Shown here piece after piece: positions 22,224 to 55,769 of a stretch of 64,000 nucleotides of DNA. The translations under genes and the position numbers were made by a program. The notes beneath the pieces were generated by a model. The model was not told where the DNA came from. It ran no database searches and worked only from the letters and a program-made list of their open reading frames with translations. Location: contig NZ_JDTH01000001.1 of the NCBI RefSeq assembly GCF_000710615.1, forward strand, positions 806,001 to 870,000. The letters are read 5' to 3'. How positions within the stretch are numbered: the stretch's first letter is position 1; each line of letters opens with the position of its first letter. The DNA is from Haladaptatus cibarius D43. GTDB taxonomy: Archaea > Halobacteriota > Halobacteria > Halobacteriales > Haladaptataceae.

Positions 22224-22240
22224 GGAAAGCAGTGCTTTCC
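22224..22240. repeat. Palindrome ggaaagc-agt-gctttcc
   Basis: Two 7-bp arms flank a 3-base centre in the spacer upstream of the signal peptidase gene. The arm-triplet-arm form is the same as in the arrays at 24632-24729 and 55685-55748 and in the tRNA-Pro region, so it is probably a member of that palindrome class. Confidence 0.55.
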
Positions 22241-24091: not shown

Positions 24092-24505
24092 ATGTACTCG
24101 CGGGAGCATTTCCTCATCGGCGTAGTTGTGTCGGGCCCTCTCCTCGTACCCCTTTCGGAGCGGTTCGGAACCACGCTTCTCGCCGGACTATTCGTCTACG
24201 GCGTCCTTCTTTCCGTTTTCATCGATTTAGACCACTTCGTCCTCACCCGGATTCGAACCGGGAGTTGGCGACATCTCGCGGCCTGCCTGAAAAACCCGGT
24301 CGCCGCCTTCGGTGACCAAGACTGGGTGTTCGAGGACGTGGATAGCACGGATTTAGAGCACGAACGTATCTTGTCGCACGTTCTCCTCGGGGGTGTTCTG
24401 GTGGCACTCTTGGTCTTCGTTTCGCCAGCAGTCGCGGTGTTTTCGGCTGTCGTCCTCTACTTTCACATTCTTGCTGACTTGCTTCGGGATACTGGTGTGT
24501 TGTAG
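24092..24505 (+). CDS. Small membrane protein of the YdjM/DUF457 metal-dependent hydrolase type
   Basis: The 137-residue protein begins MYSREHFLIGVVVSGPLLVP. It has about three hydrophobic segments. Potential metal ligands sit at the membrane edge: SREHFLIG at the start, FIDLDHF near residue 46, LEHERILSHVLLGG near residue 88 and HILADLLRDTGVL at the end. The H, DxDH and HxxxD pattern is that of the YdjM/DUF457 hydrolases, and the clearer relative at 56532-57026 shares it. Function in the family is not well proven. Confidence 0.65.
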   Translation: MYSREHFLIGVVVSGPLLVPLSERFGTTLLAGLFVYGVLLSVFIDLDHFVLTRIRTGSWRHLAACLKNPVAAFGDQDWVFEDVDSTDLEHERILSHVLLGGVLVALLVFVSPAVAVFSAVVLYFHILADLLRDTGVL

Positions 24506-24601
24506 AAATTTGATGGAAATCGGATTTTTGGAGATTTACGAGCACCATGTGGCGCACACTTGATGCGAGTCGGAGGGCGTGGTCAGTTGCGGTTCCTCGG
24601 T

Positions 24602-24729
24602 GGATGAAGGGCGAGCGAAGCGAGGGATGGAGAAAATCGAAGATTTTCACGGGTGAGCAAACGCGAAGCGTTTGCGAGCCACGGAAAACCGGCGGTTTTC
24701 CGGTGCCTCGGAAGAGCAAAGCTCTTCCG
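24602..24729. repeat. Regular array of four different short palindromes
   Basis: Four perfect palindromes follow one another, each with two arms and a 3-base centre: gaaaatc-gaa-gattttc (24632-24648), gcaaacgc-gaa-gcgtttgc (24657-24675), cggaaaacc-ggc-ggttttccg (24682-24702) and cggaagagc-aaa-gctcttccg (24709-24729). Their starts are 25, 25 and 27 bases apart. A GA-rich unit (gcgagcgaagcgaggg, about 24611) precedes them with the same spacing. Arms differ completely between units, so this is not a simple tandem repeat. A diverged copy in opposite orientation is at 55685-55748. Confidence 0.8.
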
Positions 24730-24788
24730 GTGGCTTCGTTTGGAGTTGTGATTTGCTTCTTCCCATTTGACTAGATTGTGTTTCAGCA

Positions 24789-24951
24789 AATCACGACACC
24801 ACTGAAAACCGCCACCACCTCCGCACCGCAACCGGCCACACGCCTCCCCAACCGATTTCCTCACTCGCTGACACTCAGTCGGTCATCCCTCGCACGCTGT
24901 CAGTGCAAGCCTCCGGGCGAGATGCCCTTCGGCTCGCACCAGCGCGCGCCG
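24789..24951 (+). repeat. Dispersed intergenic repeat, copy A
   Basis: The element begins aatcacgac, has a C-rich middle and then the core cctccccaaccgatttcctcactcgct, followed by catccctcgc and ends near gcgcgcc. The same order of blocks is found at 34404-34568 (plus) and 34610-34761 (minus). It has no coding potential that fits a family. It is probably a non-autonomous haloarchaeal intergenic element, but no terminal repeats or target duplication can be recognised by eye. Confidence 0.6.
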
Positions 24952-27866: not shown

Positions 27867-29470
27867 ATCTCCGCGTCAACTGGCGGGCCAGCGTGAGCCT
27901 CGTCGGCACCGTCGTCAAATGGCTCTCGGTACCGCTTCTGTTTCCGCTCATCATCGCGGCCTACTACGGCGAGTTGGATGCGATTCGAACCTTCGTGACG
28001 ACCATCGTCATTGCACTGGTGGTCGGCAGTTCGCTCGAACGTCTCGAACCAGACCCCGACCTCGGTGCACGCGAGGGTTTCCTGATGGTCGCGCTGACGT
28101 GGTTCGCAGTGTCCATCGTCGGTGGCCTTCCCTACGTCATCGCTGGGAACCAAATCACCCTTCTCGGGCAGTTCCCGTTCATCAACGTCGTCTCCAGCCC
28201 CTCGACGCTCGCAGATCCAGTCAACGCGCTGTTCGAGAGCATGAGCGGCTTTTCGACCAGCGGAGCGACCGTTATGGGCGACATCTCCTTCGAAACACAC
28301 TCACGCGCACTGCTGATGTGGCGGCAGTTGACCCAGTGGCTCGGCGGGATGGGAATCGTCGTTCTCGCCGTCGCCATCCTCCCGGAGTTGTCGGTCGGTG
28401 GCGCGCAGTTGATGGAGGCGGAAGCGCCCGGCCCGGGCATCCAGAAGCTCACGCCGAAAATCGCGGAAACCGCGCGCGCGCTCTGGAAAGCGTATCTCGG
28501 TATCACGGCGCTGGAAATCGTCCTGCTGTACGGACTCCATCTTCTCGGCCCACTCGTCGGACAACCCCTCGCGCCCAACATGACGCTTTACAACGCCGTC
28601 GCGCACGGCTTTACGACGATGTCTACCGGCGGCTTCTCGCCGGAGGCGAGAAGCATCGAGGCGTTCTCCGCAGTGGTGCAGTGGCTCATCATCCCCTTCA
28701 TGGTCGCGGCGGGGACGAACTTCGCGCTGTTCTGGCACGTTTTGAGCGGCGACCCGCGAAAATTGATTCGTGACGCAGAGTTCAGATTTTACGTCGGCGT
28801 GATGGCCGTCCTCTCCGCGATTTTGACCGCCCTGCTCTTCACGCATCAGGAATTGGTGTTCGTCCCCGGCGGTGCGCCCGTCGCAGGTAACTTCGAATCG
28901 TCGCTTCGACACGCCGCCTTCCAAATCGCTTCCATCGTCACGACGACGGGATACGCGAGCATGGACTTCAACACGTGGAATAGTTCCGCGCAGTACCTCC
29001 TGTTCGCGGCGATGCTCATCGGCGGGAGCGCCGGTTCGACCGGCGGCGCAATCAAAATCGTTCGCTGGTACGTGATTCTGAAATCTCTTCGCCGGGAACT
29101 GTTTACGACGGTTCATCCCGAAGCGGTTCGACCGCTCCGTCTCGGCGGACGCGCGCTGGACGAACGCGCAGTCCGCGGCATTTACGTCTTCACTCTGCTC
29201 TACATGGTCATCTTCTTCGTCAGTGCACTCCTCTTGTTTCTCAACGCGGAGCGCGCTGGCGGGCCGAATCTGAACACGTTGGAGGCGCTGTCCGCGGTTG
29301 CCGCCACGCTCGGCAACGTCGGTCCCGGCTTCCAACTGCTCGGCCCGATGAACAGCTATCTGCCGTTTTCGGACACCTCGAAACTGTTCATGGTCGCGCT
29401 GATGTGGATTGGCCGACTCGAAATCCTGCCGGTGTTGGTTCTGCTGACGCCCGCCTACTGGCGGTCGTGA
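27863..29470 (+). CDS. trkH: Trk potassium uptake channel subunit TrkH
   Basis: TrkH (535 residues) is the membrane pore. It carries the four selectivity-filter loops of the SKT family: MSGFSTSGATVMGD near residue 130, TTMSTGGFSPEARS near residue 252, TTTGYASMDFNTWN near residue 355 and TLGNVGPGFQ near residue 480. The intramembrane gating segment contains GGSAGSTGGAIKI. K+ uptake is central for a salt-in halophile. It overlaps trkA by four bases. Confidence 0.97.
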   Translation: MNLRVNWRASVSLVGTVVKWLSVPLLFPLIIAAYYGELDAIRTFVTTIVIALVVGSSLERLEPDPDLGAREGFLMVALTWFAVSIVGGLPYVIAGNQITLLGQFPFINVVSSPSTLADPVNALFESMSGFSTSGATVMGDISFETHSRALLMWRQLTQWLGGMGIVVLAVAILPELSVGGAQLMEAEAPGPGIQKLTPKIAETARALWKAYLGITALEIVLLYGLHLLGPLVGQPLAPNMTLYNAVAHGFTTMSTGGFSPEARSIEAFSAVVQWLIIPFMVAAGTNFALFWHVLSGDPRKLIRDAEFRFYVGVMAVLSAILTALLFTHQELVFVPGGAPVAGNFESSLRHAAFQIASIVTTTGYASMDFNTWNSSAQYLLFAAMLIGGSAGSTGGAIKIVRWYVILKSLRRELFTTVHPEAVRPLRLGGRALDERAVRGIYVFTLLYMVIFFVSALLLFLNAERAGGPNLNTLEALSAVAATLGNVGPGFQLLGPMNSYLPFSDTSKLFMVALMWIGRLEILPVLVLLTPAYWRS

Positions 29471-29569
29471 GCCGGTTTCGACTCGGTCGAAATCTGTGAT
29501 CATTCGACCGAGACAGTTTCGAGCAACGACACACAAAAGTCAATACGAGAGAAAGTACACCATCTGATA

Positions 29570-29842
29570 ATGTCGTCTCGACCGTTTTTCACGTTTTCCC
29601 CGGATGAACTCGATACAGCGCAGATACTCAATGAAGCACTCCCGCTTGCAAAACTCATCGGAGCGGTTGGCGTGGCTGCCCTTATACCAATGCTTTTGCA
29701 ATTCTTTCTGATTGAGGTATTCGGACTAGTTCCGGTGTTCGGACTCCTGTTCACGCTTGCGACACAGTTCATCCTCGCGGTCGGAACTGGAATCGTTCTC
29801 ATCTACGTCATCGTTCGCGCAAACCAACTCGCCGACGAGTAA
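29570..29842 (+). CDS. Small two-span membrane protein, function unknown
   Basis: The 90-residue protein begins MSSRPFFTFSPDELDTAQIL. It has two or three hydrophobic segments (LIGAVGVAALIPMLLQFFLI and VFGLLFTLATQFILAVGTGI) and ends RANQLADE. It follows trkH on the same strand after 99 bases with AT-rich sequence in between, so it may have its own promoter. I do not recognise a family with a known role. Confidence 0.6.
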   Translation: MSSRPFFTFSPDELDTAQILNEALPLAKLIGAVGVAALIPMLLQFFLIEVFGLVPVFGLLFTLATQFILAVGTGIVLIYVIVRANQLADE

Positions 29843-29913
29843 TTGAGTCGGTCAAAAATGGCGTCCGTGGATCTCGACGGAGAAAGTGGTTCGACAGAAA
29901 ACCGTTCGGTTGC

Positions 29914-34286: not shown

Positions 34287-34403
34287 GTCGTACAGTTAAT
34301 GTGAATTCGACAAAAAGTTTTGGTTACCAACGATTCGGGATTGCGTGTGGATTTCGGTAACATCTGGATGGTGCAGTTGCGTTTGAATGGATTTCTGTGG
34401 ACG

Positions 34404-34568
34404 AATCACGACAACATATACCCCCGCCGCGCTCCCGGCGGTGCCGCTCGCCATCGAGATTTCGGAGAAATCTCGTTCGCCACCCCTCCTAACCGATTCG
34501 CTCACTCGCTGGCGCTCGTTCGCCCATCCCTCGCGCGGGCGACCTGACGGCCGCCTTCGCGCGCCATA
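34404..34568 (+). repeat. Dispersed intergenic repeat, copy B
   Basis: It begins aatcacgac like copy A (24789) and shares the core cctcctaaccgattcgctca, the block catccctcgcgcg and the end gcgcgcc. The middle has diverged and includes the palindromic gagatttc-gga-gaaatctc-like sequence near 34458-34475. It faces copy C. Confidence 0.55.
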
Positions 34569-34609
34569 TGGATTTCTCGGATTCCGAAACCGACACAAAC
34601 CCTCGTGGC

Positions 34610-34761
34610 GCGTGCGTCGGCAGGCCTGAGGAGTTCACTTCCGAAGGCCTGCCAGTTTTCGCGCGAGGGATGAGCGAAGCGAGTCGGTTGGGGAGGTGTG
34701 TGGGTGGGTGCGGGTGGGTGCGGGTGGGTGCGGGGCGTGCGGTTTCATTGAAGTCGTGATT
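34610..34761 (-). repeat. Dispersed intergenic repeat, copy C (inverted)
   Basis: Read on the minus strand from 34761 it begins aatcacgac, passes a C-rich tandem section, then cctccccaaccgactcgctt, catccctcgcgcg, in the same order as copy A. Its closeness to copy B in opposite orientation means that the pair could form a long imperfect stem. Confidence 0.55.
34697..34736 (+). repeat. G-rich tandem repeat, quadruplex-capable
   Basis: A 10-base unit gtgcgggtgg is repeated about three times, giving seven runs of at least three G within 36 bases (34702-34736). Four closely spaced G3 runs are enough in principle for a G-quadruplex. The tract corresponds to the C-rich middle of the dispersed repeat on the other strand. 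Copy A lacks such regular G3 runs. Confidence 0.7.
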
Positions 34762-34869
34762 TCCTCACGATTCATTTTCTCTCACAATCAGTTATGTACC
34801 TGGTCTGCTGTTCCTCGCCGCCAAAATCACAACTTCCAGTCTCCTCGTGTCGATGGCGAAGGTTGATTA

Positions 34870-39240: not shown

Positions 39241-39311
39241 GGGACCGTGGGGTAGTGGTATCCTCTGCGGATGGGGTCCGTAGGACTCGAGTTCGACTCT
39301 CGGCGGTCCCA
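39241..39311 (+). tRNA. tRNA-Pro(GGG)
   Basis: Acceptor GGGACCG (39241-39247) pairs with CGGTCCC (39304-39310), with A39311 as discriminator. The anticodon arm is TGCGG-ATGGGGT-CCGTA with anticodon GGG, and the T arm contains GAGTTCGACTC. No CCA is encoded. It lies 43 bases after the aspartoacylase relative and is followed by repeats of its own 3' end. Confidence 0.97.
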
Positions 39312-39700
39312 TGATTTTACGACGAACGGACGTGAGGAGAAAAATCAGTCGAGCGCCGAGCGTCGCATTCGCGCTTGCGCGATGTCGGACGAGCGTAGCG
39401 AGTCCGAAGCTCGTCGTGGAGCGAAGCGGAACGACGGTGTTCGACTCTCGGCGGTTCCACTTTTTGCGGAGCAAAAATGGGAGTATGGATGGCGAGCGAA
39501 GCGAGTCTTCCGGTAGTCCCACTTTTACGAAGTAAAATGGATGACGGAAGACGACCGACGCTGGTCAGCGTCGGTCGTCTTCCGGTAGTCCCATGATTTT
39601 GCGACGGGTTTGCGAACGTAGTGAGTGAACTCTCGTGACGAGCGTGCGAAGTCACGGTGAACGGACATGAAGAGAAAAATCAGTCGAACACCGAACGTGG
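39291..39700 (+). repeat. Repeated tRNA-Pro 3' end and flank: probable integration scars
   Basis: Bases 39291-39311 (tRNA T arm and acceptor) recur at 39439-39459 with one mismatch. The tRNA end plus flank (gtcccatgattttNcgacg, 39306-39324) recurs at 39587-39605. The flank gaacggacgtgaggagaaaa and onward (39324-39352) recurs at 39659-39687 with two G-to-A changes in 29 bases. A third partial end, cggtagtccca, is at 39511-39521. The region holds no integrase or other gene. Serial integration at the tRNA with loss of the cargo explains this best; local tandem duplication is the alternative. Confidence 0.65.
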
Positions 39701-55458: not shown

Positions 55459-55769
55459 CAGGTAGACACTATTTCTCACACTGCTGACTTAACGTTTCGG
55501 CTCTGAATGATGTGACCGAATGCAAATTAAGGAACTATTCTGCCATTTGCGTGGTTGTAATGGGGCAACGAAGAACGACGGTGTCGATAACTCGGTGCAG
55601 AGGTTGGCTTGCTACTGTACTGATTACTACTGTTAGGCGCAGGCCACGCCTCCGAAAGAAGAAGTTTCGCGGTACCTGACAATCCTTGGTTTCCGTAACT
55701 CGCAAACGCAAAGCGTTTGTTCACCTGTGAAAATCTCCGATTTCCTCGGCTCTCGTTCGTCCGGTTCCC
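55459..55769. other. Intergenic region with second palindrome array
   Basis: These 311 bases contain no credible gene. The right half holds a diverged, oppositely oriented copy of the palindrome array of 24602-24729 (at 55685-55748). The left part (55500-55560) is AT-richer and may include the promoter of the coiled-coil gene. Confidence 0.55.
55685..55748 (-). repeat. Diverged copy of the palindrome array (opposite orientation)
   Basis: Read on the minus strand, ggaaatc-gga-gattttc, then cacaggtgaa, then caaacgc-ttt-gcgtttgcgag and ttacggaaacc follow in the same order and spacing as in 24632-24690 (gaaaatc-gaa-gattttc, cacgggtgag, gcaaacgc-gaa-gcgtttgcgag, ccacggaaaacc). Arms are largely conserved whereas the three-base centres differ. 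The third and fourth palindromes are decayed. Confidence 0.65.

Follow-up and report, generated by a model that had tools for sequence, protein, structure and literature searches.

The four-hairpin array at 24632-24729 of the window, the 64,000-nucleotide stretch of Haladaptatus cibarius D43 DNA that was analysed, is on balance best explained as a set of nested double-hairpin modules (M1+M4 and M2+M3, each of about 53 bp) lodged in a transposase-free palindromic intergenic repeat of Haladaptatus. This reading is drawn from directly observed features, namely the anatomy of the array, its copy number, its size classes, sites with and without it, the reuse of its arms across genera and a structural rule at the hairpin turn. 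The unit would be a short, perfect stem ending in a triloop of the form C-GNA-G, or in the complement of that form, and this turn folds very stably in single-stranded DNA. The four hairpins, none of which is assigned to a strand, are the following.

24632-24648, no strand: hairpin M1, GAAAATC-GAA-GATTTTC, outer pair
24657-24675, no strand: hairpin M2, GCAAACGC-GAA-GCGTTTGC, inner pair
24682-24702, no strand: hairpin M3, CGGAAAACC-GGC-GGTTTTCCG, inner pair, present in 18 of 18 aligned copies
24709-24729, no strand: hairpin M4, CGGAAGAGC-AAA-GCTCTTCCG, outer pair

The observation made in a preliminary description of this DNA is confirmed, and its interpretation is partly supported. Four perfect palindromes with three central bases each are present at 24632, 24657, 24682 and 24709, with the start intervals (25, 25 and 27 bases) and the centres (GAA, GAA, GGC and AAA) given there, and the similar triplet-centre hairpins that it placed at 22224, 39461 and 39523 were found in the sequence. 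Shuffled sequence yielding equally dense arrays had been named beforehand as the outcome that counts against the description. With arms of at least 7 bases required, the window has 29 triplet-centre palindromes, where 60 first-order Markov shuffles average 6.9; it also has two groups of at least three such palindromes within 110 bases, and no shuffle (0/60) produced one. The arms were said to be unrelated, which is true of the four among themselves, but M1, M2 and M4 recur as modules, each in many copies at other places. Haladaptatus copies are the only ones in which M3 was seen, the order-wide pattern searches having taken in M1, M2 and M4, and the M4 position is occupied in many Haladaptatus copies by GCGAAAGAC-nnn-GTCTTTCGC instead of the arms found in the window. 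Two of the four hairpins in the window have GNA centres, while GGC and AAA do not fit, and GCGAAGC itself is contained in M2.

The host of the array is a multicopy, gene-free, intergenic palindromic repeat that occurs in dozens of copies in Haladaptatus. Its parts in the window are as follows.

24591-24626, plus strand: leader module of the host half-element, GGTTCCTCGGTGGATGAAGGGCGAGCGAAGCGAGGG, with the other side, CTTCGTTTGGAG, at 24734-24745
24627-24733, plus strand: 107-bp insert with the four hairpins; the same junction elsewhere holds 0, 52-54 or 105-107 bp
24746-24756, plus strand: left-half end motif, TTGTGATTTGC
24757-24785, plus strand: spacer of 29 bases between two facing ends
24786-24797, minus strand: right-half inverted end motif, GCAAATCACGAC
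24798-24950, minus strand: right half-element B', ACTGAAAACCGCC..CTCCCCAACCGA..CATCCCTCGCACGC..GCGCGCC, profile match 24767-24951

Module order is constant, running from the leader (GGATGAAGGGCGA...GAGGG) through M1-M4 to CTTCGTTTG or a variant end, and none, two or four hairpins stand at the leader junction, depending on the copy. The leader is joined straight to CTTCGTTTG in array-less copies, such as L023, L040, L126, L145 and L147. Filled and plain copies at the GAGGG/CTTCGTTTG junction, which are paralogous copies and not a strict before-and-after pair, differ by the insert and have no end repeat longer than GG. The insert starts with CCGGAG or CCGGGG and ends with CTTCCGGTGG or CTTTCGCAGG, forming a short imperfect inverted repeat only. 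With the 151-base region as query, 9 of 20 genomes were matched, including eight matches in H. cibarius itself (genome G000); a search with the leader-bearing half-element gave 24 matches in G000 and reached 7 of 9 genomes of the genus. A landmark expression returned 39 matches from 40 loci fetched around half-element matches, and on reading, 13 of the 39 contain the leader module, whole or as a remnant, and 7 of the 13 carry further hairpins. The exact end form GTCGTGATTTGC occurs in 37 copies in G000 and 42 in the related Haladaptatus genome G005 (reversed control, 0 and 1), and reading of the 37 positions in G000 revealed no pair of ends that could enclose a transposase at 1-3 kb, as would be expected of an autonomous partner of a MITE. 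Among the matches listed, the right half-element repeat occupies at least 18 further places in its own genome, and several of these places hold a complete inverted element some hundreds of bases long. At 12 fetched places, facing ends surround related spacers of 28-30 bases. In the window (24746-24797) and at L087 and L090, facing inverted 12-base ends enclose a spacer of 29 bases, and its orientation with respect to the arms varies among G000, G005 and another Haladaptatus relative, G006; the spacer looks like an invertible or switched segment.

Hairpin number rises in twos from one size class to the next. A single regular expression requiring M1-like and M4-like ends, which leaves decayed copies outside the count, identified 14 distinct copies: five with M1 and M4 only, spanning 47-50 nt, nine with all four hairpins, spanning 99-102 nt, and none (0/14) with three. 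Growth therefore proceeds by double-hairpin units of about 53 bp, and the difference between the two span classes is thus the contribution of the inner pair M2+M3, about 53 bp. The outer pair M1+M4 forms a 52-54-bp insert in four cases with a clean junction, and L013, a copy with M4 alone, lies outside the 14-copy count. The even spacing of hairpins in the window is the packing of two double-hairpin units.

Comparison with Haladaptatus relatives (G005, G006 and G008) showed that the double-hairpin unit is present or absent as a whole. At the window site, for which G005 and G006 were compared with G000, both relatives have retained the flanking genes together with an element, and neither has the four-hairpin array. 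Relative to G000, the element in G005 has its arms swapped and a spacer that points the same way, and the element in G006 is reversed. Two further places in the window were compared.

34392-34777, no strand: complete inverted B'-B element without array, profile matches 34392-34539 (plus) and 34605-34777 (minus)
55651-55750, minus strand: second four-hairpin array, partly decayed, with an orthologous array in G005

The G006 ortholog of the element at 34.4 kb has an extra double hairpin compared with G000, and G005 lacks the element. Over 34343-34840, the palindromic element is found in G000 and G006, and an unrelated stretch of about 870 bp occupies the same intergenic site in G005. No array was seen at the site orthologous to the 55.7-kb array in G006 or G008. 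Since states with and without the modules occur at orthologous sites, modules have been gained or lost at fixed sites. The idea of a modular element with the hairpin as its unit is supported, and the mobile-hairpin version of that idea gains support from orthologous absence, from inserts at one junction and from the two-hairpin size steps.

Within Haladaptatus, arm sequence and pairing are both conserved and the centre is free, as follows from the identity and pairing figures for 18 aligned copies: identity is 85% in arms, 83% in linkers and 42% in centres, and 91.4% of pair cells hold standard pairs, compared with 25-55% for slid partners. The suggestion that selection acts on pairing agrees with these values, but two-sided changes are few, affecting only 4 of 36 pairs, a number equalled by 104 of 500 shuffles; counted by cells there are 13, equalled by none of 500 shuffles. 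The copy at 55685-55748, from which that suggestion arose, does keep the order and spacing, and its hairpins 1 and 2 have kept arms and new centres, but hairpins 3 and 4 are broken, having lost pairing in the own genome without any compensating change, an outcome that the preliminary description had itself named as refuting and that applies to this copy. The earlier statement that the hairpin and not the sequence is the unit is not supported in its second half, as arm sequences are conserved and used again elsewhere.

The search for exact-arm patterns covered 146 genomes from 57 genera of the order, and the resulting counts are lower bounds because exact arms were required. The M1 pattern occurs in at least 72 of the 146 genomes and 36 genera (reversed control at one place), the M2 pattern in at least 22 genomes and 16 of the 57 genera (reversed control 0), and the M4 pattern in at least 36 genomes and 15 genera (reversed control 0). 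In a sample of the phylum, M4 was present in 5 of 43 genomes of the order compared with 1 of 203 others. By reading, M1 and M4 copies stand among other palindromes, several of them in elements with a recognisable leader or half-element. The leader GTGGATGAAGGGCGA is found in 16 of the 146 genomes, with 7-36 copies per matching genome of another genus (g8), and its reversed control gave three matches in total. A virus-borne element was considered and rejected, as the phage collection gave no match and two exact patterns occurred in only 1 and 4 stretches of viral contigs. A plasmid-borne element was likewise rejected, only short pieces being present, in records of Natrinema, Halobaculum and Halorussus. 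No published account of these hairpin modules was found in the open-licence literature.

The centres of these modules follow a C-GNA-G rule. Among the matches listed, GNA or TNC centres were found at 58 of 75 M4 places and 67 of 79 M1 places, where the random expectation for such a triplet is one in eight. The inner pairs of M2 are complementary at 23 of 29 listed places outside its own genome (GC/GC 15, CC/GG 6, AC/GT 2), and the centre is GNA or TNC at 22 of these 23; binomial values for M1, M2 and M4 centres are overstated because copies are related by descent. In an independent test that left out M1, M2 and M4 and applied one filter to all centre sizes (arms of at least 8 bases; 35 loci, all from other genera), the yield was 34 distinct palindromes with triplet centres, compared with 1-10 for each other centre size; closure by C-G was found in 33 of the 34 and a GNA or TNC centre in 23, so that palindromes other than the modules themselves also carry the C-GNA-G loop of GNA minihairpins. 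The same count at 27 tRNA-linked loci gave 13 palindromes, 9 of them closed by C-G and 7 with GNA or TNC centres, and a few of the 13 are tRNA anticodon stems. In 464 kb not chosen for elements, palindromes with arms of at least 8 bases show a weaker GNA excess, 12 of 45. The link to the C-GAA-G minihairpin drawn in the preliminary description is borne out by these centre and closure counts across haloarchaeal places, and the hairpin turn is, to judge from its sequence, that of the GCGAAGC minihairpin. In the part of PMC4686876 available to us, d(GCGAAGC) is described as very stable, with a three-base GNA loop, a G-A pair, C-G closure and a G-C stem. The modules share the loop and the C-G closure of such minihairpins, whereas the minihairpins in that part of the source come from chemistry and aptamer work and are not a genomic element (PMC4686876). 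The promoter hairpins of phage N4 virion RNA polymerase likewise have a short stem and a three-base loop; according to excerpts of PMC4496689, they extrude from the duplex at physiological supercoiling, and their stem bases may vary provided that pairing stays. Unlike the modules here, they are described there as a phage promoter read by a phage polymerase (PMC4496689).

Outside Haladaptatus, M2 adjoins tRNA genes at 25 of 27 loci by ARAGORN and at the other two by reading of the sequence. tRNA genes were rejected as a general site, since the association holds for M2 outside Haladaptatus and not for M1/M4 loci, which lie at tRNA genes in 3 of 35 cases outside Haladaptatus and 0 of 6 within it. 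At 14 of 16 loci examined, the final 13 bases of the tRNA occur at least once more downstream, with up to two mismatches; at some loci an inverted copy of the tRNA end makes that end an outer stem around M2, and some tRNA-Gly genes have a hairpin at their 5' end. In the window, a similar hairpin array stands after the tRNA-Pro gene at 39241, and its counterpart in G005 is shorter. Downstream of this gene, at 39312-39660, triplet-centre hairpins are interspersed in alternation with several copies of the tRNA 3' end, and the stretch is about 270 bp longer than in G005. At L178-L205, haloarchaeal tRNA genes are succeeded by units, every one of which is terminated by a copy of the tRNA 3' end; frequently an inverted copy is also present and encloses hairpins. 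These units could be relics of integration or tRNA-like minihelices.

The strongest competitor to the module reading, although a rather unlikely one, is a purely mutational origin, in which a nascent strand folds back on a C-GNA-G loop and primes itself, and recombination spreads the product with no function or machinery. The three central bases, the C-G closure and the GNA preference are what a self-priming hairpin needs, many different arms exist, and inverted repeats of all sizes are somewhat over-represented in the window (nested centre sizes being counted). Fold-back origin explains the three-base C-GNA-G turn well; it does not explain why identical arms turn up at unrelated places, in 22-72 of the 146 genomes, and conservation of arms while centres change, together with size classes rising two hairpins at a time, also argues against it. 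It is improbable that the arms are half-sites for chromosome-organising or regulatory DNA-binding proteins separated by a three-base spacer, with the hairpin incidental. Conserved arms and linkers around free centres do recall operators with spacers, but outside Haladaptatus the centres are mostly GNA or TNC and closed by C-G for many different arms, and the modules are absent at orthologous sites in relatives.

A transcribed structured RNA, a transcription terminator or a barrier is a very improbable source of the pattern. Of 18 copies, 17 have lower RNA folding on the plus strand, and there are more G-T cells than A-C cells (36 vs 18), but the strand difference over the M1-M4 columns is no more than dinucleotide shuffles give (observed -3.9, shuffles -4.7 kcal/mol), and the imbalance between columns with any G-T and columns with any A-C, 20 vs 14, is weak. 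Strand-specific conservation of RNA pairing was thus not detected in the 18 copies, the difference being equal to that of shuffles, and no Rfam family matches the array region at gathering score. RNA-level selection or an RNA gene was rejected as the main reading because shuffles match the plus-strand bias, and the array is therefore not read as RNA. The slimmest chance is given to miniature elements integrated by a tyrosine integrase that targets tRNA genes, with the hairpins spreading from them later: the M2 loci beside tRNA genes and the further tRNA-end copies downstream of them speak for such elements, but M1/M4 loci lie off tRNA genes, the Haladaptatus arrays are elsewhere, and simple integration leaves the inverted tRNA-end copies unexplained.

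Nested double-hairpin modules would spread as DNA that, once single-stranded or supercoiled, adopts a hairpin fold. Other palindromes might be the places where they are copied or inserted, whether through a trans-acting machine or through recombination and template switching among the copies. Neither a transposase nor an autonomous partner of the modules was found. A family search for the Y1 transposase (PF01797; IS200/IS605, RAYT) gave no match in G000, and this transposase was rejected as the mover on account of its present absence there, which is compatible with past action; 5 of 9 genomes of the genus have matches. REP sequences and BIMEs are extragenic palindromes that are paired, occur in many copies and are accompanied by RAYT transposases. 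The elements described here are like them in being paired multicopy palindromes, but have no RAYT counterpart, as PF01797 is missing from G000. A broader proposal, offered tentatively, is that haloarchaea may share a library of mobile DNA hairpins recognised by their shape, a stem closed by C-GNA-G, and not by any single sequence; they would be gained in twos, nest, capture the ends of tRNA genes and be moved in folded single-stranded form by an undescribed system.

We infer that the modules are best read as transposase-free mobile or recombining DNA-hairpin modules resembling the small mobile repeats of Haloquadratum. They are not filed as SMR-A, and the apparent likeness rests on description. 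The part of PMC3119063 available to us describes SMR-A of Haloquadratum walsbyi as about 110 bp long, with no transposase gene, no evident target duplication and many copies; it gives them prominent terminal inverted repeats and, as targets, near-terminal palindromes of IS605-type elements and PATEs. The same part calls the mobilisation of SMR-A and PATEs enigmatic and reports orthologous sites at which the repeat is switched or reversed (PMC3119063). The 107-bp insert is like SMR-A, as described there, in being haloarchaeal, transposase-free, located inside palindromes of other repeats and present in many copies (PMC3119063). Its length matches that of SMR-A (about 110 bp, too short for a transposase), and reading of paralogous filled and plain copies likewise revealed no target duplication. 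Unlike the prominent terminal repeats of SMR-A, its ends are only weakly inverted (CCGG-), and its unit is a hairpin pair under the C-GNA-G rule, whereas SMR-A is characterised, in the part of PMC3119063 at hand, by IS605-type and PATE targeting. Mitochondrial double-hairpin and repetitive hairpin elements are also similar, with one or two hairpins per unit in tandem or multiple arrangement; their numbers differ between related species, and excerpts of PMC2800124 report no flanking duplications for those of Allomyces. These elements are eukaryotic, the C-GNA-G rule was not seen in that portion of the source, and the likeness carries no claim of homology (PMC2800124).

How small transposase-free haloarchaeal repeats move is unexplained in the available part of PMC3119063, and the modules give a precise handle on it: a countable double hairpin of about 53 bp, a C-GNA-G rule that can be mutated, and natural pairs with and without the modules at the same sites. 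They also suggest that a DNA turn familiar mainly through chemistry and the promoters of phage N4 may occur naturally and genome-wide.

Three other places in the window are recorded. ARAGORN calls a tRNA-Leu at 24238-24322, within the ORF 24092-24505, and the call is probably spurious because there is no Rfam tRNA match at gathering score. A stretch of about 400 bp at 29470-29910, in whose place G005, G006 and a further relative, G004, have about 40-70 bp, may be a small gene gained in the own genome. At 1675-1774, the Rfam model of the Archaeoglobi L4 ribosomal protein leader (L4-Archaeoglobi) matches this haloarchaeal window with 71.9 bits (gathering score 34.5).
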